A DNA stretch of 64,000 nucleotides from Acidimicrobiia bacterium (GTDB lineage Bacteria; Actinomycetota; Acidimicrobiia; Acidimicrobiales; MedAcidi-G1): the NCBI GenBank assembly GCA_012959995.1, contig DUCC01000026.1, positions 1 to 64,000 of the forward strand. The letters run 5' to 3'. The position numbers were made by a program, and so were the translations under genes. A model generated the notes under the pieces. It was not told where the DNA came from and did no database searches. It worked only from the letters and a program-made list of their open reading frames with translations. Below are positions 1-14,869 of the stretch, in pieces. Numbering within the stretch: the stretch's first letter is position 1; the number at the start of each line of letters is the position of its first letter.

Positions 1-87
1 TTCAAGCATAAAAACGACCGTCCGGTTGAAGTGACGATCCTCTAAAGCCGCCCCCGCCACCAGAAGTTTCCCCTTGGTATAAGTCAT
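1..87 (-). CDS. yqgE: YqgE/AlgH family protein (UPF0301), N-terminal fragment cut by the window edge
   Basis: Reading the minus strand from 87 gives 29 codons that begin MTYTKGKLLVAGAAL and continue EDRHFNRTVVFMLE. This is the typical opening of the YqgE/AlgH family: a short strand, then L-x-D-x-x-F-x-R-T-V-V-x-x-x-E. The function of the family is not settled; AlgH was first linked to transcriptional regulation in Pseudomonas. The start codon overlaps the stop of the upstream recombinase gene in an ATGA, so the two are probably translationally coupled. The rest of the gene lies outside the window. Confidence 0.8.
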   Translation of the reverse strand, partial: MTYTKGKLLVAGAALEDRHFNRTVVFMLE

Positions 88-1136
88 TGGTCGATTTCTT
101 TTACTATTTGCGCAACTAGGTTGTTTGCTTCTGATTTTTTGATGCTTTTAAGCAAGTCAACGGACGCCATATCTGTGTACACACCAGTTGTTTTTATGCT
201 GGCGTGACCAAGGAGACTTTGAATTTCCGCCATTCGTACGCCCTTTGATGCCCACTGCACACCGGCAGTATGACGAAGAGAATGGAGCGACCGATTCTTG
301 AGGCCCGCCAATTTATTTAGCCTGAGAACCCAGTAGCGGAGCCTGGGATAATTCAGTCGCTTTGCACCATTTCTAGTCACGAATAGAGGGTCATCCGGAT
401 TTGGCTCACCGAATCGCTCTGACCTGGCTCGCTTCCACACCTCAAGGATGTCGATCAGTTCCTCTGAAAGCGGCAGCCTTCTCATTTTATTCCCCTTCCC
501 CTCCACTCTGATAACAGCTCGCTTCGAACTTTCTAGCCCGTCAAATATCACCCAAGAACAATCCGCGTCTATTACTTCTGAAACCCTGAGCCCAAGTCCA
601 GCAAACAGCGAAAGCATCGCACAGTCTCGCTCAGGCCAGCGAACGTTGTCCCCGGTTTTTTTAGCGTCAACATCCATGAGCGCCGCATCAAAGAGACGCT
701 TGAGTTCACCGATGGTGTAGTACTCAGGCTCTGGTTGTTCAACGGCCAGTTTTGAAACTTTACGAATAAGAGACACATTTGGCACTTCTTTTACTAAACC
801 GTCTGTAATGCAAAAGTCTAAGAATGATTTCATTGCGGCCATGCTTTGGCTTAGCGTCGCTGGTTTAAACTCGCGAATAGTCTTTCCTGGGTTTTTGGGA
901 TCAGGTTTCTCTGAAACCTTCATTGTTCGCGCAATATCTGTCAACTCTCTTTGCGAAAATGAATCTGCAGAAAAATCATCAGGCTTAATTTCAGCAAAAC
1001 ACACAACGCGTCTAACTCCTTGGTTGTATGCCCGAACCGTGGTGGCTGGTTTGTCTTCCAGCGACGACAGCCAGAACAGCCATTCATGGAAGACGGCGGG
1101 CATTTCCTCTGGGTTAGGTAGTTTTCGGTGAGCCAT
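84..1136 (-). CDS. Tyrosine recombinase / phage-type integrase, XerC/D-like
   Basis: This 350-residue protein has the usual two parts: an N-terminal core-binding (SAM-like) domain at about 10-120 and a C-terminal catalytic domain at about 138-335. All catalytic positions of the family are visible: Arg184 (GLGLRVSE), a Lys in GKGNK (214-217), His285 and Arg288 (HSLRH), His311 (LLGH) and the nucleophile Tyr320 (TGVYTDM). It should therefore be an active site-specific DNA recombinase. It is somewhat longer than XerC/XerD (about 300 residues). It looks A+T-richer than its neighbours, which fits acquisition by transfer, but no other phage or element genes are nearby. Its stop overlaps the yqgE start by 4 nt, and a dif-like palindrome lies 28 bp upstream of its start codon. 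Confidence 0.9.
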   Translation of the reverse strand: MAHRKLPNPEEMPAVFHEWLFWLSSLEDKPATTVRAYNQGVRRVVCFAEIKPDDFSADSFSQRELTDIARTMKVSEKPDPKNPGKTIREFKPATLSQSMAAMKSFLDFCITDGLVKEVPNVSLIRKVSKLAVEQPEPEYYTIGELKRLFDAALMDVDAKKTGDNVRWPERDCAMLSLFAGLGLRVSEVIDADCSWVIFDGLESSKRAVIRVEGKGNKMRRLPLSEELIDILEVWKRARSERFGEPNPDDPLFVTRNGAKRLNYPRLRYWVLRLNKLAGLKNRSLHSLRHTAGVQWASKGVRMAEIQSLLGHASIKTTGVYTDMASVDLLKSIKKSEANNLVAQIVKEIDQ

Positions 1137-2507: not shown

Positions 2508-2975
2508 TTAAATCAGCGAGCGCTGCACCACGATTGCTCGAGCCACCATTTTTTGGCTCTCAAAAAAGTTTTTGGTCATTCGGTCCCCCGGGAGAGCCAG
2601 CGCATCAATGGCCACCGCTCCCCTACTTTTGGACCACGCAATAAGTTCATTTACTACCGCTTCGCCAACCCCCACCGACCGCGCTTCTGGCTCCACAAAA
2701 ATCGCTTCAATGGTGGCCTGCAGTTGTTGATCGGCCGCGGTATAAACCCGAACCAACCCGTAGGCCACCGGCGTGTCTTCGTAGCAACCCAACACCACCA
2801 AGCGTTGAGCATCAGCGAGCGCTTGACGCATCTCCCCCGCCACATCAAGGCGAAACGGGTCTAACCGGTCAAGGGTGTCTCCGCCTCGTTTTTCCACCAT
2901 TTCCTGGCGAGCTCGTTGACCGAGGTCAACTAACGCCGCAAGGTCGTCCGCCGTTGCTTTTCGGGCGGATTCCAT
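2508..2975 (-). CDS. GNAT-family N-acetyltransferase
   Basis: This protein of about 155 residues has a GNAT fold signature: the beta4 strand IEAIFVEPEA is followed by the acetyl-CoA pyrophosphate loop RSVGVGEAVVNELI and a C-terminal ALPGDRMTKNFFESQKM segment. The last segment is typical of the region that closes over the CoA. The substrate cannot be told from sequence. An upstream ATG at 3011 would add 12 residues and overlap the preceding gene, so MESARKATADD at 2975 is preferred. It follows the acidic zinc-ribbon gene by 5 nt and is probably cotranscribed with it. Confidence 0.75.
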   Translation of the reverse strand: MESARKATADDLAALVDLGQRARQEMVEKRGGDTLDRLDPFRLDVAGEMRQALADAQRLVVLGCYEDTPVAYGLVRVYTAADQQLQATIEAIFVEPEARSVGVGEAVVNELIAWSKSRGAVAIDALALPGDRMTKNFFESQKMVARAIVVQRSLI

Positions 2976-2980
2976 GGCGC

Positions 2981-3382
2981 CTATGAAATAGGGCCACCAC
3001 AGTGGCCGCATTCACCGGTCTCAGCAACAGTTTTTGCCTCCACCAGTAAAAAGCAATGAGGGCAATGCATTTCGGTCTTTTGGCGTTCTTGCACATCGTC
3101 AGTTGGCTTAGCCACCACCGCGACTACGCCGTCTTCGCCGTCTTCGTCGTCTTCGTCGGCGGCGATACGGTCACGCAAAATGGCTTCAAGGTCGGCTTCA
3201 ACCTCGTCGTCGTCAAGGTCCTCGTCGTCAGCATCATCTGACGTCTCTTGCCCTTTTTCATCGTCATCGTCATCGTCATCTGCGTTGACGTCTTCGCCTT
3301 CACCGTCGACTTCTTCGTCGGTGTCGCCGTCGAATTCCTCGTCGGCTCCTTCTTCAAGTTCTTCTTCTGTTTCTTCGCTCAT
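2981..3382 (-). CDS. Acidic protein with C-terminal zinc ribbon, DUF4193-like
   Basis: Of 133 residues, the first ~90 are almost entirely Glu and Asp with a few Gly. A short helix follows (VEADLEAILRDRIAADED), then a C-terminal metal-binding module with Cys107, Cys110, Cys125 and Cys128 (CPHCFLL and CGHCGG). The layout of an acidic leader, a DRIA-type helix and a CxxCFL knuckle resembles small actinobacterial proteins of the DUF4193 type; this comparison is from memory. The function is unknown. A Shine-Dalgarno-like GAGGA and an A/T-rich TATTAT (3393-3398) lie just upstream on the minus strand. Confidence 0.65.
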   Translation of the reverse strand: MSEETEEELEEGADEEFDGDTDEEVDGEGEDVNADDDDDDDEKGQETSDDADDEDLDDDEVEADLEAILRDRIAADEDDEDGEDGVVAVVAKPTDDVQERQKTEMHCPHCFLLVEAKTVAETGECGHCGGPIS

Positions 3383-3454
3383 TTGATCCTCAATAATATT
3401 AAATCGTTCGCCGCCGGATCATAGACACACCAGCGGCCATCACCACGTCTTTTC

Positions 3455-4441
3455 TTACAAAGGTGACTTCATGGGTAATTTAAGTAAGGGGTTTTCCAGT
3501 ATGCCTACCACAGCGGGGTCCGTTTGTCGGAGATCATCAGGGGTACAGGGGCGCCATTCGTGAGAAATCTCTTGACACCGTTCCGGCCCCACTGCGACCT
3601 GTAACCCAAGTAACGTGGTGTGTGCCCAATAAAAGTATTCAGTAACCATGCACCCGTAGTCACAGGTTCGGTCGTCATAGCTGTACCAGGCGGCAGATGG
3701 GTAAGGGTTTGGTACCGAAGTGAAGTGCCCGCCCCGAGCAATATCCATGGCCTCCGACAGCGCAGAGCCTTCTCGAGCAAAATACTCGGGGTAAACCACC
3801 GCCCAACCTCGGTCATAAATCAAGTGGTGCACTTCTTCTAAAGCAAAATCAAAAGAACCCGGTTGCGCTGTTTCGTTGGCATACAACTCTTGAAAGGGAG
3901 AAAAACCTGCCTCTTCGAGTTCTCCGAAGGCTTCCCAAATTTCGTCTCGATCTATGTCCTGGTTTGATGCCCCCATCATCACTCCCGAACGGGCGTCCAA
4001 GAGAGCAGAAAGAACCGCTGGGTCATCTACATTGCCGTCTTGATCGTTATCTAAATAGCCACGCAGTACTTGTGCAGCATGCAGAATCTTCGCCGGGTCA
4101 GTGGCGGGGGTCGCCACGATGGGCACGCCGAAGACGCTTACATGCTGGGCAAAGAGCCCATCTAGCGCTCCAAAATTACTAGGCAAAACAGTCACCACCA
4201 TAGGTTCAAGCGGTGGATGGGTGACCGGCACGGCATTCGGCTCTTCGCTAGGTGCCCCGGTCAGCGAAGTGGTTATGCCATCAGGCAAGGCCGTTGGAGT
4301 CACCGTTTCCTCAGAAGAAACAGTGACATCAGGGCCTTGCCCCAAAACTACCGTCGTTGTCGAGGGTCGGGCTTCGCTGCCAGAGCAAGCCCCCAAGAGC
4401 AGGACGCCAGCCAAACAAAAACCGACCGATGCTGCCCTCAC
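3455..4441 (-). CDS. Lipoprotein with EF-hand-like loop, function unknown
   Basis: The 328-residue product starts with a signal peptide and the lipobox LGAC (Cys19), then a Ser/Thr/Pro/Glu-rich linker to about residue 85. It should be a surface-anchored lipoprotein. The globular part has an EF-hand or dockerin-like Asp loop, DNDQDGNVDD (131-140), and a possible metal site in LEEVHH (201-206). C-terminal motifs rich in aromatic residues and Cys (AWYSYDDRTCDYGC, TEYFYWAH) follow. I recall similar uncharacterised proteins in marine bacteria but can name no family. The start is a GTG whose G is shared with the last base of the TAG stop of the upstream ThyX-like gene, so the two are coupled. Confidence 0.7.
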   Translation of the reverse strand: MRAASVGFCLAGVLLLGACSGSEARPSTTTVVLGQGPDVTVSSEETVTPTALPDGITTSLTGAPSEEPNAVPVTHPPLEPMVVTVLPSNFGALDGLFAQHVSVFGVPIVATPATDPAKILHAAQVLRGYLDNDQDGNVDDPAVLSALLDARSGVMMGASNQDIDRDEIWEAFGELEEAGFSPFQELYANETAQPGSFDFALEEVHHLIYDRGWAVVYPEYFAREGSALSEAMDIARGGHFTSVPNPYPSAAWYSYDDRTCDYGCMVTEYFYWAHTTLLGLQVAVGPERCQEISHEWRPCTPDDLRQTDPAVVGILENPLLKLPMKSPL

Positions 4442-10391: not shown

Positions 10392-11153
10392 CTACTCGTC
10401 TACTCGTCGTTGACGGCGGTCTCTAAGACGCCCAAACAAAATGGCTGCTTCGTAAAAAATTATCATGGGCACCGACAAAACCAACAAAGTAAACGGGTCC
10501 CCGCTGGGGGTCAGTACCGCCACCAACGCCACAATTCCCACAATGGCGAAGCGGCGATTTTTTCTCAAAACCTTATTGCTTAAAATGCCAACCATTTGCA
10601 ACATGATGAGCACCAAAGGAAACTCAAAGCCGATGCCAAAAGCAATGGTCATCTTGACCACGAACCCTAAATATTTGGCCGGGGAAAACACGCTCACTAG
10701 GTCGGGGCCACCAATACTGACCAGAAAATCCAACGCACGCGGGATACTCCAATAAGCCAAAGCCATTCCCGAAACAAAAAGCACCATCCCAGAAAGAACA
10801 AAAGGCACCGCCCAGCGCCGCTCTTTGGGGTACAAACCCGGGGCGACAAAACGCCAAAGTTGCCACAAAATAACCGGCATAGCCAGAGCTACCCCTCCGT
10901 AGCCAGCCACAGTCATTCTTACCCCAAACGGCTCCAAGGGGTCGGTGACCAAGAGTTCACAACTTTGACCAAAAACAGAACTACTGGGCATAGTCAGACG
11001 AACCTGACAGTACGGGCGAAGAAGAAAATCAAGAATCTGGGGGTAAAAAATCCAACAAACGATTGCCCCGAGCACCACCGCTCCCGCCACCACCAATAAG
11101 CGGCGGCGTAGTTCCTCCAGGTGAGAAACAAGAGTCATTTGGCTACTTTTCAT
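10392..11153 (-). CDS. tatC: Sec-independent protein translocase TatC
   Basis: TatC recognises twin-arginine signal peptides and, with TatA/TatB, moves folded proteins across the membrane. The 253-residue protein opens with the diagnostic HLEELRRRL (11-19) and has about six hydrophobic segments. A periplasmic loop (FGVRMTVAGYGGVALAMPV) and the late FEFPLVLIMLQMVGILS are also typical. The basic C-terminus RLRDRRQRRVDE is cytoplasmic. The start lies 2 nt after the tatA stop, so the pair is cotranscribed. Confidence 0.95.
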   Translation of the reverse strand: MKSSQMTLVSHLEELRRRLLVVAGAVVLGAIVCWIFYPQILDFLLRPYCQVRLTMPSSSVFGQSCELLVTDPLEPFGVRMTVAGYGGVALAMPVILWQLWRFVAPGLYPKERRWAVPFVLSGMVLFVSGMALAYWSIPRALDFLVSIGGPDLVSVFSPAKYLGFVVKMTIAFGIGFEFPLVLIMLQMVGILSNKVLRKNRRFAIVGIVALVAVLTPSGDPFTLLVLSVPMIIFYEAAILFGRLRDRRQRRVDE

Positions 11154-11155
11154 GG

Positions 11156-11476
11156 CTACAGGTTCACGGAGTCCAAATCGTCTGGATGCTCTTGTTCAGA
11201 TAGCTCTTCTGGGGCCTCGGACCGCGGCGAAATATTCTCTTCTGTTTGCGCTTTTTCTTCGGCTACTAACTCATCTCCACGAGCTCGTGCTTGCAGTTCA
11301 GCTACCGGGTCGTCAATTGCTGCCTGCAGTTCGGCTTGAAATCCTCGAGTAACCTGACGCACCTGCTGGAGCGCTTTACCAATTTGGCGGGTCACTTCGG
11401 GAAGACGGGTCGGGCCTAGAACCATCAATGCCAGAAGCAAAATAACCATTACTTCACCGCCACCAAGATTTCCCAT
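11156..11476 (-). CDS. tatA: Tat translocase subunit TatA/TatB
   Basis: This 106-residue protein has one N-terminal membrane helix (about 7-22, EVMVILLLALMVLG), then GPTRLPEVTRQIGKAL, which is the hinge and amphipathic helix of TatA/TatB. The rest is charged. Sequence alone does not separate TatA from TatB clearly; the length and the P-E in the hinge fit either. It precedes tatC by 2 nt. TAGAGT ends 6 nt before its ATG, suggesting a leaderless transcript for the tat-helY operon. Confidence 0.88.
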   Translation of the reverse strand: MGNLGGGEVMVILLLALMVLGPTRLPEVTRQIGKALQQVRQVTRGFQAELQAAIDDPVAELQARARGDELVAEEKAQTEENISPRSEAPEELSEQEHPDDLDSVNL

Positions 11477-11482
11477 GAGGCG

Positions 11483-11488
11483 ACTCTA
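11483..11488 (-). promoter_or_regulatory. Candidate leaderless -10 (TAGAGT) for tatA-tatC-helY
   Basis: GGTAGAGT on the minus strand is followed by 6 nt and the tatA ATG. The same GGTANNNT plus 6-7 nt arrangement recurs at other genes in this window. Confidence 0.5.
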
Positions 11489-11537
11489 CCAGCGCCATAA
11501 TGCCCCCTACCCAGATATATCGGCCATGATGGTAGGT

Positions 11538-12257
11538 ATGCCGTCTTATTTGCCACCGCCCTCCCAGCGGCCCATTCTGTTTGCCCATCGCGGCGGCAAG
11601 GCCCATGGCCCAGAAAACACTTTGCCTACCTTCCAAACGGCCCTCTCCATGGGAGCCACCGGGCTAGAGAGCGATGCCTGGCTGACCTCCGACGGACAGG
11701 TGGTTCTTGACCACCGGGGGCACCTCGGCCCCTTCTTTCGCAAACGCCGACTCTCTCAAATGAATCTGACCGACCTCCCCGATCACCTCCCTACGTTGAA
11801 TGCCCTCTATGAGTCGGTGGGTAGCAATTTTGATCTTTCCCTTGACGTCAAGGACCCGGCGGCCTTCACCGCCATTTCAAAAATCGCCGCTTCGTTTCAA
11901 GCCACCTCTCGTCTCTGGCTTTGTTTTCCCCATTGGGAAACCGCCGCCACATGGAGAGAACACAACCAAGAGTTTCACCTAGTCGATTCCCCCACTCAAG
12001 ATTTGCTCACCGGTCAACACGAACGACGAGCGGTACAACTTTCTTCCGCCGGCTTTGATGCCATAAACATGCCCGAGCCCTCCTGGACGGCCGGTCACGT
12101 CGCTTTATTTCACCGCTTCGGCTTGCGGTGTTTGGCTTGGGACGCCCAGCAACCGCGGCAAATCAATCGATTGCTCAAAATTGGCGTAGACGGCATTTAT
12201 GGCGACCATGTAGAACGTCTGGTAACTGCCGAACAACGATTCTTTAAGGCCCGCTAA
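11538..12257 (+). CDS. Glycerophosphodiester phosphodiesterase (GDPD family)
   Basis: The protein, about 239 residues from MPSYLPPP, is a GDPD TIM barrel that hydrolyses glycerophosphodiesters to glycerol-3-phosphate and an alcohol. The catalytic signature is FAHRGGKAHGPENT near the N-terminus (HRG at 17-19, EN at 26-27), followed by LESDAWLTSDGQVVLDH. The C-terminal WDAQQPRQINRLLKIGVDGIYGDH matches the end of the family fold. There is no signal peptide, so it is probably cytoplasmic. The start is uncertain: ATG codons at 11526, 11529 and 11538 are all in frame. It converges with the AI-2E/LepB fusion gene, and the two stops overlap by 4 nt. Confidence 0.85.
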   Translation: MPSYLPPPSQRPILFAHRGGKAHGPENTLPTFQTALSMGATGLESDAWLTSDGQVVLDHRGHLGPFFRKRRLSQMNLTDLPDHLPTLNALYESVGSNFDLSLDVKDPAAFTAISKIAASFQATSRLWLCFPHWETAATWREHNQEFHLVDSPTQDLLTGQHERRAVQLSSAGFDAINMPEPSWTAGHVALFHRFGLRCLAWDAQQPRQINRLLKIGVDGIYGDHVERLVTAEQRFFKAR

Positions 12258-13939
12258 AGGCGTCCGAAACGCCCCAACGGCCAGACCCGTAAAAAGGCTC
12301 GGCCTTCTATGGAATCCACGGGTATCGGGCCAAAAACTCGACTGTCATTAGAATTAGGGCGGTTGTCGCCCATGACAAAGACGTAGCCGTCGGCCACCGT
12401 GCACTGGTCCGGTGCATCGTTGATGCCCACACACCCCGGAGGTTTACGAAACGAGCCGGTAATATCTTGAGCGGCCAAGTAGGGCTCGAGCAGCAAAATT
12501 TTATCAATGTAGACCCGCCCCCCTTGCACCTGAACGGTTTCTCCTGGTAACCCCACCACGCGCTTGATGAGATCTTCAACACCCCTCGAAGCGCCCTCAG
12601 GGTTTTTGAAGACAATGACGTCTCCCCGGTTTACATCGTGCAGTTGGTAGCTAAGTTTATTTACGATTATCCGGTCGCTAATTTCCAACGTGGCTTCCAT
12701 GGAAGGCGACGGAATGTAATAGGCCTGGAATAAGAATGTTTTTACCACCAGGGCAAACACGAACGCTCCGGCAATCACTCCAACCCACTCCAGTACTCCG
12801 CGCACCGTGGTAGCAAAAGCCCCTCGCCGGGGACGCTCTTTGCGGCCGCGCCGGGCCCGGCTTTCTTTTAACGTCTCTTCGTCTACCTCATAACGCTCAG
12901 CGGTGGCCGAAATAACGGCTTGCAGGGTGGCCGCAAAAGGCAGCGCCAACAAGGCCCCAACTACCCCCAACAACGCATTGCCGGCAATAACCGACCCGAA
13001 AGCCACCGCCGGATGGATTTCCATAGTGTGAGCGGTGATACGGGGAGCAAAGAAGTAGTTTTCGAGTTGCTGGTAAACAACAATGATGACCAAGGCCCAT
13101 AAACCAGTCGAGGGTTCGTCAAGCAAACCAACCACTACCGGCAACACCCCAGCGATATAGGTGCCGATAACCGGAATGAACTGCGACACCACGCCCACCC
13201 AAAGGGCTAACGCCAACGCGGAGGGAAGGTTAATGAATTCGAAGGCCACCCAATGGACCACCCCAGCGATAATGGCCAAAGCAGCACGGGACAAAATGTA
13301 ACCACCGGTTTTAGCAATGGCTAAATCCCACACCACTAACACTCGGCGAGCTTTTTGCGCAGAAAGCAGCGAACAAACCGAACGCCGAAGCTTTGGACCC
13401 TCGGCCACCAGGTAAAAAGTAAAAAGGCCGATGGTGAAAAGCTGGAATAACACGTTGACCACCGTGGAACCAAAGCGCGCAAGGTCGTCAGCAAAAGAAC
13501 CGAGGTAACTGGCTATGGCCCCATCTTCATAGTTGGTTCTCAGGTCAGCAGTAGCCTCTTCGACCCCGAACTGGTCTTCAAGAAAAGTATCAATATCGGC
13601 TAAATAGGTAGGAATATTGTCGGAAAATTCGGTGAGCTGTTCGGCTAACAACGCTCCCACCGCTACCCCGAATCCTCCTATGGCCCCCAGAATAAGAAGA
13701 AACATTATTCCCGTCGCCACACCGCGCCGCACTCTGAGGTTCTCCATGCGGTTGACGGCCGGTTCGATGGCAAACGACAAGAAAAGAGAAACCAACAAAA
13801 TAATGAATAACGAGCGCAGCGAGGAGATCATGCTCAGCACGTAACCGAGCAAGCCGTACCCGATGAGGGCAACCAGTATTGACTGTATGACCCAACGAGG
13901 AGGGCGAGAAAGCGCAGGGGAGGCGGAAGAATCATTCAC
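12254..13939 (-). CDS. Fusion of an AI-2E-family (PerM/UPF0118) transporter domain with signal peptidase I
   Basis: A single 561-residue frame joins two families. The N-terminal ~350 residues are an AI-2E/PerM-type membrane protein with about eight hydrophobic segments, including FIPVIGTYIAGVLPVVVGLL and NALLGVVGALLALPFAA. A basic linker (RARRGRKERPRRG) leads to a complete signal peptidase I: a membrane anchor, IPSPSMEATL with the nucleophile Ser413, DLIKRVVGLPGE with the general base Lys459, and the box MGDNRPNSNDSR. The catalytic dyad is intact, so the protein should cleave Sec or Tat preproteins. Start choice: GTG 13939 has TACCGT 9 nt upstream, whereas ATG 14101 would extend a non-homologous tail across the rplC promoter. 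No frameshift is apparent. Confidence 0.85.
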   Translation of the reverse strand: MNDSSASPALSRPPRWVIQSILVALIGYGLLGYVLSMISSLRSLFIILLVSLFLSFAIEPAVNRMENLRVRRGVATGIMFLLILGAIGGFGVAVGALLAEQLTEFSDNIPTYLADIDTFLEDQFGVEEATADLRTNYEDGAIASYLGSFADDLARFGSTVVNVLFQLFTIGLFTFYLVAEGPKLRRSVCSLLSAQKARRVLVVWDLAIAKTGGYILSRAALAIIAGVVHWVAFEFINLPSALALALWVGVVSQFIPVIGTYIAGVLPVVVGLLDEPSTGLWALVIIVVYQQLENYFFAPRITAHTMEIHPAVAFGSVIAGNALLGVVGALLALPFAATLQAVISATAERYEVDEETLKESRARRGRKERPRRGAFATTVRGVLEWVGVIAGAFVFALVVKTFLFQAYYIPSPSMEATLEISDRIIVNKLSYQLHDVNRGDVIVFKNPEGASRGVEDLIKRVVGLPGETVQVQGGRVYIDKILLLEPYLAAQDITGSFRKPPGCVGINDAPDQCTVADGYVFVMGDNRPNSNDSRVFGPIPVDSIEGRAFLRVWPLGRFGRL

Positions 13940-13997
13940 TATTCGGCGACGGTAGTGGCGCGACGATGGCTCTTGAGGGATACCTCTGCCTCTCGCG

Positions 13998-14025
13998 TTG
14001 TGGTGGAGCGCGTTTACCTTATAGT
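13998..14025 (+). promoter_or_regulatory. Candidate sigma-70-type promoter of the ribosomal superoperon
   Basis: TTGTGG (13998-14003), a 16-nt spacer and TATAGT (14020-14025) form a plausible promoter. It implies a 5' leader of about 190 nt before rplC. The -10 matches consensus at five of six positions, and the -35 is weaker. Confidence 0.5.
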
Positions 14026-14137
14026 ATTGTCCTTCTGCGTCTATTGGGAGGGTCCCAAGGCGTGTCAATTGACGTTCGGATAGGCCTGAAACGTTTCGCA
14101 AGAAGCGCTAAGGAACCAGACGACACAACCGAATCTC

Positions 14138-14169
14138 CGCTCCGTCGGGCACCATGCCTGCACGGAGCG
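14138..14169 (+). promoter_or_regulatory. Leader hairpin upstream of rplC
   Basis: An 8-bp perfect stem, CGCTCCGT (14138-14145) with ACGGAGCG (14162-14169), encloses a second 5-bp stem, GGGCA (14147-14151) with TGCCT (14155-14159) including one G-U pair, and a CCA loop. It lies in the untranslated leader between the promoter and rplC and has no U-run after it. It could be an autoregulatory ribosomal-protein element; that role is inference. Confidence 0.5.
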
Positions 14170-14224
14170 TCCGCTTGAGTGCCCAACAGGGGTGCTCATG
14201 ATGACAAAACTCGCAGGAGCCATC

Positions 14225-14869
14225 ATGGCCAACAAAGCAATCGTCGGCGAAAAGGTCGGCATGACACAGGTGTGGGACGAAGACAATCGCGTCGTCCCCG
14301 TTACTGTGCTTCGTGTTCGCACCAACCGCGTCGTCCAAGTAAAAACCCAAGAACGAGATGGGTACAGCGCTCTCCAAGTGACCTACGGTCAACGAGACGC
14401 CGCCAAACTCACCCAGCCAGAAGCCGGACACTTTGCCGGCGCCGGCGTAGAAGCTGGCCTCGAACTGGTAGAACTCCGCATCGACGATGTGAGTGGCTAC
14501 GAAGTCGGCCAAGAAATCACCGTCGACATGTTGGCCGAATCTGGTCTGGTTGACGTCACTGCGGTAAGCCGCGGTAAAGGCTTTGCTGGCGCTATGAAAC
14601 GCCACGGCTTCGCCGGTTTGTCTGCTTCCCACGGCGTGCACAAAGCGCACCGTAAACCTGGAGCAATTGGCCAATGCGCCACGCCTTCTCGCGTTTTCAA
14701 AGGAAAGCGCATGCCAGGTCGCATGGGTAACCAAAAAACCACCACCTTGAACTTACAAGTCGTAGAAGCTGACGCTGAGCGCGAAATTCTTTTGGTACGA
14801 GGTTCTGTACCGGGGCCACGAGGCGCAACGGTTCTCATACGCAACGCCGTTAAGGGAGGCCAGTCATGA
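14225..14869 (+). CDS. rplC: 50S ribosomal protein L3
   Basis: The product starts MANKAIVGEKVGMTQVWDED, the typical bacterial L3 opening, and contains the conserved SHGVHKAHRKPGAIGQ and PGRMGNQKTT loops that reach toward the peptidyl-transferase centre. The start at 14225 has AGGAG 7 nt upstream; an in-frame ATG at 14192 would add 11 non-conserved residues. It is the first gene of the operon. rpsJ (S10), which usually precedes it, is not here. Its stop overlaps rplD by 4 nt. Confidence 0.96.
   Translation: MANKAIVGEKVGMTQVWDEDNRVVPVTVLRVRTNRVVQVKTQERDGYSALQVTYGQRDAAKLTQPEAGHFAGAGVEAGLELVELRIDDVSGYEVGQEITVDMLAESGLVDVTAVSRGKGFAGAMKRHGFAGLSASHGVHKAHRKPGAIGQCATPSRVFKGKRMPGRMGNQKTTTLNLQVVEADAEREILLVRGSVPGPRGATVLIRNAVKGGQS

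Follow-up and report, generated by a model that had tools for sequence, protein, structure and literature searches.

Are a signal peptidase I and an AI-2E-type membrane transporter truly encoded by one gene at this locus, and if so, how did the gene arise and what could its product do? The question was raised by a reverse-strand open frame at 12254-13939 of the window, the 64,000-nucleotide stretch of an Acidimicrobiia genome (GCA_012959995.1, contig DUCC01000026.1) that was analyzed here. The frame ran uninterrupted over 561 codons from a GTG start to a TAG stop, and Pfam and NCBIfam profile searches of the 561 aa product agreed with the initial annotation, which had read from the letters a full AI-2E domain and a full signal peptidase I in a single frame. 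The AI-2E_transport domain (PF01594; 12902-13849, reverse strand) was found at residues 31-346 and covered positions 8-326 of the 327-position Pfam profile (E 3.7e-58), with a score of 197.7 bits against a cut-off of 34.3 that identifies it as a full domain. The Peptidase_S26 or signal peptidase I domain (PF10502; 12281-12793, reverse strand) occupied residues 383-553 and profile positions 2-168 of 168 (Pfam, E 5.8e-49). It was likewise a full S26 domain by its score of 166.7 bits against a cut-off of 22.9, and sigpep_I_bact (TIGR02227, NCBIfam) matched residues 385-555 with 149.3 bits against a cut-off of 47. The active-site elements proposed at the outset were all in place: the nucleophile Ser413 within SPSMEA (codon 12701-12703, reverse strand), the general base Lys459 within LIKR (codon 12563-12565, reverse strand) and the MGDNR box at residues 523-527. 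In an alignment of the fusion with 40 relatives Ser413 and Lys459 were invariant. The transmembrane anchor helix of the peptidase was placed at residues 386-404 (12728-12784, reverse strand).

The breakpoint between the AI-2E and lepB sequences was located at 12824, close to the position of about 12,830 first suggested. On one side of it lay the native C-terminal tail of the AI-2E protein, truncated, at residues 347-372 (12824-12901, reverse strand) with the basic end RARRGRKERPRR. On the other side, a copied lepB segment that starts at residue 373 and runs 5 bases beyond the stop codon (12249-12824, reverse strand) was recognized by its identity to free lepB. The tails of the approximately 60 AI-2E proteins of relatives were short and ended near the same breakpoint, running just a few residues beyond it before the stop.

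The same junction was present in a second genome of the genus, MAG ANT-33 (JAPKBH01, labeled Acidimicrobiales; here G002), in which AI-2E enters lepB at the identical base. Both genomes come from closely related marine actinobacteria that are uncultured. Contig C8 of this MAG was 98.4% identical to the window DNA over 1457 bp, extended approximately 130 bases past the junction and then ended. The tail of the signal peptidase was found at the end of contig C50, adjoining a GDPD fragment, the fused gene of G002 being split across these two contigs. A complete fused gene within one unambiguous contig was not seen, as the G002 copy is split and the contig of the window probably contains a misjoin below 12,626. 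An origin of the junction as a base-call or assembly artefact was rejected, because an independent MAG that differs by 1.6% crosses the identical junction base; this speaks against the base-call error that the initial annotation had named as a possible refutation.

The window contig itself was probably misjoined within about 11,899-12,626. The tract at 11899-12626 appeared nearly identical between two loci of the window genome, as judged from the ends of two other contigs: C34, which carries the rpsJ-tatC'-GDPD' side, ended at the equivalent of 11899, and C11, which carries the paf-lepB side, ended at the equivalent of 12626. In the window rplC stood without rpsJ, and the fusion adjoined GDPD-tatA-tatC-helicase. 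A misjoin was favored because relatives place the GDPD-tatA-tatC-helicase genes with the free lepB and because C11 and C34 both end in the shared tract. Genes below about 11,900 are likely not neighbors of rplC in the real chromosome. In the actual chromosome the GDPD gene (11475-12257, forward strand) probably adjoins the free lepB, with a truncated copy beside rpsJ on C34, where a fragment of tatC was also found as part of the copied segment (tatA at 11156-11476 and tatC at 10392-11153, both reverse strand). If the contig were correct as given, the two lepB copies would have recombined, leaving the fusion beside GDPD-tatA-tatC-helicase and the S10 operon split from rpsJ. The contig does read so, and the contig ends fit a misjoin and a recombination alike, but relatives in the genus keep rpsJ by AI-2E/rplC and lepB by GDPD-tatA. 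It is also simpler to assume that the assembly left the near-identical tract along the wrong path, and we regard such a recombination as unlikely.

The probable misjoin nearby, where rplC lacks rpsJ and AI-2E is paired with genes that belong beside the free lepB, could, together with the two contigs ending at the shared tract, raise the suspicion that a chimeric join also produced the AI-2E-lepB junction. This is very improbable, given that 12824 lies outside the shared tract and beside AI-2E sequence absent from the free lepB, that a MAG differing by 1.6% has the junction at the identical base, and that C50 of G002 and C34 of the window genome show the other end of the insert beside rpsJ. Overall, the fused gene is likely to be real and the product of a recent duplication.

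Two loci were involved in this duplication. Wherever the contig was long enough, the gene order in the genus was pafA-pafB-pafC-lepB-GDPD (reverse)-tatA-tatC-helicase. The AI-2E gene of the genus lay reversed between rpsJ, with fusA and tuf upstream, and rplC (14192-14869, forward strand), its divergent neighbor in all genus members examined. In the genus, the str-S10 ribosomal operon is split at the rpsJ-rplC boundary by the reversed AI-2E gene (window 12824-14192; L117, L119), and in G004 a further membrane-protein ORF, possibly BI-1-like, was seen between the same two genes (L119, 6614-7399). On C50 of G002 and C34 of the window genome, the tuf end of the operon, at which rpsJ was read on C34, was immediately followed by a fragment of tatC that runs into a GDPD lacking its 5' end. 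Both tatC'-GDPD' copies had the same internal deletion, with window position 11149 joined to 11775, and on C50 the truncated GDPD was followed by the tail of the signal peptidase. This succession of the operon end, tatC'-GDPD' and, on C50, the peptidase tail indicates that the block was copied next to AI-2E. Most probably, a segment that starts within lepB, a little before the part encoding its membrane helix, and extends via GDPD and tatA into tatC was copied out of the pafABC-lepB-GDPD-tatA-tatC locus and inserted where rpsJ and the AI-2E gene converge. At the breakpoint, as synteny demonstrates, the last few AI-2E codons and the stop were removed and AI-2E was joined in frame to lepB. The remainder of the copied segment has demonstrably decayed: its GDPD is truncated, with a premature stop (RQID*) in the G002 copy, tatA is lost and tatC is cut. 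The AI-2E::peptidase frame has meanwhile stayed open. The event looks like a recent gene-duplication accident rather than a conserved export machine.

An ordinary free lepB, the second copy that the initial annotation had proposed to look for, was found in both genomes. In G002 it was complete on contig C55 and matched the fused copy at 95% identity across window 12249-12824; in the window genome it lay on C11 and was 96% identical to the fused copy over 199 bp, up to the contig end. Phe395 was common to both fused copies, with Val in both free copies, which makes a single lineage of the fused copies seem likely. Between the fused peptidase and the free copy there were 8 amino-acid changes in 189 codons, with a dN/dS of 0.126 that includes the constrained free copy. 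For the fused peptidase of G002, 43 and 44 codons were assembled, and a comparison of the two fused copies over 43 codons gave three differences. No premature stop interrupted the peptidase frame in any assembled part of either genome, and the fused tail of G002 was open to the stop. As the misjoin probably falls within 11,899-12,626, the 3' half of the window's peptidase may come from the free copy. The AI-2E parts of the two genomes had a dN/dS of 0.146, and the AI-2E half is therefore constrained.

The GDPD fragment was 96-99% identical to the GDPD of the window and approximately 60% identical in protein to that of G002 itself, and on this comparison the donor was probably a lineage resembling that of the window. 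For AI-2E the dS between the two genomes was 0.038, compared with 0.54 for pafA and 0.73 for pafC. The str operon through S10 was 93-99.9% identical between the two genomes, and the region upstream of lepB 83-91%. Strong codon constraint explains part of the low divergence of the ribosomal genes but does not account for that of AI-2E. These values fit, but do not prove, a recent recombination of the AI-2E/S10 locus between lineages. Separately, GDPD, tatA and tatC (window 10392-12257 compared with L114) were approximately 55-75% identical in DNA between G000 and G002, with approximately 87% for the adjoining helicase, which, from these identities, looks like an allele replacement of a gene block.

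The distribution of the fusion was narrow. Searches of 60 relatives found it in two of the eight genomes of the genus (the window genome and G002), and no fusion was found in the genomes of the six other genus members or of 29 other family members, in which AI-2E and lepB lay at separate places wherever both were assembled. With a 203 aa query centered on the junction, the matches listed for 397 genomes of the order included no other that spanned the junction, and there was no match in about 395-396 genomes of the phylum at an E-value threshold of 1e-35, which may have concealed weaker matches. The exact junction sequence was not found in viral_contigs. A conserved fusion family was rejected, as the relatives, order and phylum searches gave no further fusion among the matches listed and two of eight genus members do not make a conserved two-domain family; the fusion is derived and lineage-restricted, and it is no conserved system. 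The initial annotation had suggested checking whether the fusion is conserved in related genomes, which outside these two it was not found to be, and had held that two separate genes in relatives would speak against it. Where both genes are assembled, all relatives but one indeed have separate genes, and this shows a derived state, not an error. The initial annotation had also known of no described system of this kind, and a fusion of AI-2E and signal peptidase in one chain was likewise not found in the literature searched.

An AlphaFold2 model from a 71-row alignment was of moderate confidence (pLDDT 74.6, pTM 0.45). Foldseek matched parts of the model to S. aureus SpsB, E. coli LepB and E. 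coli TqsA (7nb6), and the nearest solved structures to the fused peptidase were 4nv4 (B. anthracis) by sequence and 4wvg (SpsB) by fold. In the AI-2E part, the loops at residues 58-74 and 180-206 were basic, the loop at 98-154 carried a strong negative charge (net -13), and the linker of the fusion ended in the basic RARRGRKERPRR. This charge pattern fits an AI-2E unit with both termini inside and a catalytic domain facing outward. The protein would then insert as an eight-helix AI-2E unit with its basic tail in the cytoplasm; next would come the anchor helix of the peptidase, and the Ser/Lys catalytic domain would lie outside the cytoplasm. Against this, a PhoA assay on the UPF0118 protein of Halobacillus andaensis, another AI-2E member, placed the C terminus in the periplasm (PMC7221264). 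With such a C terminus the fused catalytic domain would lie in the cytoplasm and be inactive.

Judged from sequence, the most likely product is a second signal peptidase that AI-2E tethers to the membrane. It would be expressed from the AI-2E promoter and be redundant with the free LepB, and the fused peptidase may be active. It is quite possible, too, that the fusion is a neutral by-product, a gene that may be expressed but whose peptidase part is inactive, through a wrong topology or through misfolding on an oligomeric transporter, or is dispensable and will decay. The neighboring GDPD, tatA and tatC copies of the same event have decayed, the free lepB remains, and the periplasmic C terminus of one tested AI-2E member would agree with an inactive domain. 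Against this, the peptidase frame is uninterrupted wherever it is assembled in the two genomes, Ser413 and Lys459 are intact, amino-acid changes relative to the free copy are few and dN/dS is low, although the constrained free copy is included in that value, and the charge pattern favors a C-in AI-2E. Between an active, redundant tethered peptidase and an inactive passenger the balance is about even. The initial annotation had gone further and suggested that an export channel is coupled to protein maturation. In such a coupling the AI-2E unit would recruit or present substrates to the peptidase, and the fusion would be selected for export with maturation. The join is in frame and topologically possible, the frame is kept in two lineages, and the low dS of AI-2E relative to pafA and pafC perhaps reflects a recent locus exchange. 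Nevertheless, the fusion is confined as far as found to two of eight genus members, a duplication of several genes, the rest of which decayed, accounts for its origin, and a free lepB is retained, so that this coupling is highly improbable. Of the earlier interpretation, a single gene with tethering of a second peptidase is a fair reading, and the coupled function is unsupported. Rather improbable, as well, is a second peptidase, active and under selection, that AI-2E tethers and possibly oligomerizes; its gene would spread from lineage to lineage through recombination around the S10 operon, and gene conversion would hold it close to the free lepB.

Taken alone, each domain is an ordinary representative of a known family. 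The fusion shares with signal peptidase I (LepB/SipS/SpsB, MEROPS S26) the complete domain, the Ser/Lys dyad, the MGDNR box and the single anchor helix of the Gram-positive type. It differs in that the native cytoplasmic N-terminal tail, which in the free copy is approximately 107 aa long, acidic and proline-rich, is replaced by the AI-2E transporter. With the AI-2E family (TqsA/YdgG, PerM, YdiK; PF01594) it shares a full-length domain with approximately eight hydrophobic segments and a large acidic loop, and it is the single AI-2E gene found in the window genome, but its C-terminal tail is cut after KERPRR and continued by the signal peptidase. More than one signal peptidase I gene per genome is also known from B. 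subtilis (SipS/T/U/V/W); here, however, the additional copy arose recently by duplication and is joined to a membrane protein to which it is unrelated. The pattern of a copied fragment in frame with a resident gene, with the rest of the block decaying, is that of chimeric genes formed by segmental duplication and does not differ in principle. The fusion is best filed as a chimeric signal peptidase I variant of narrow distribution and as no new system. The birth of a young chimeric membrane-enzyme gene can be read here base by base, with the donor locus, the target site, the decaying passengers and the free copy. The locus also illustrates that near-identical duplicates can misjoin MAG contigs beside a real fusion, where neighborhood arguments may mislead. 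Should the fused peptidase prove functional, it would demonstrate that signal peptidase I can accommodate an entire transporter at its cytoplasmic end.

Two minor observations concern the surrounding sequences. In G005 the helicase gene was found at two places on one small contig (L122, 1-4100), with its C-terminal part at 3-356 and its N-terminal part at 2792-4036, and a ThyX-like match on L122 was cut off at residue 181; this locus appears to be rearranged or misassembled. Near the start of the window, a tyrosine-recombinase-like ORF of 350 aa was recognized by eye at 84-1136 (reverse strand).
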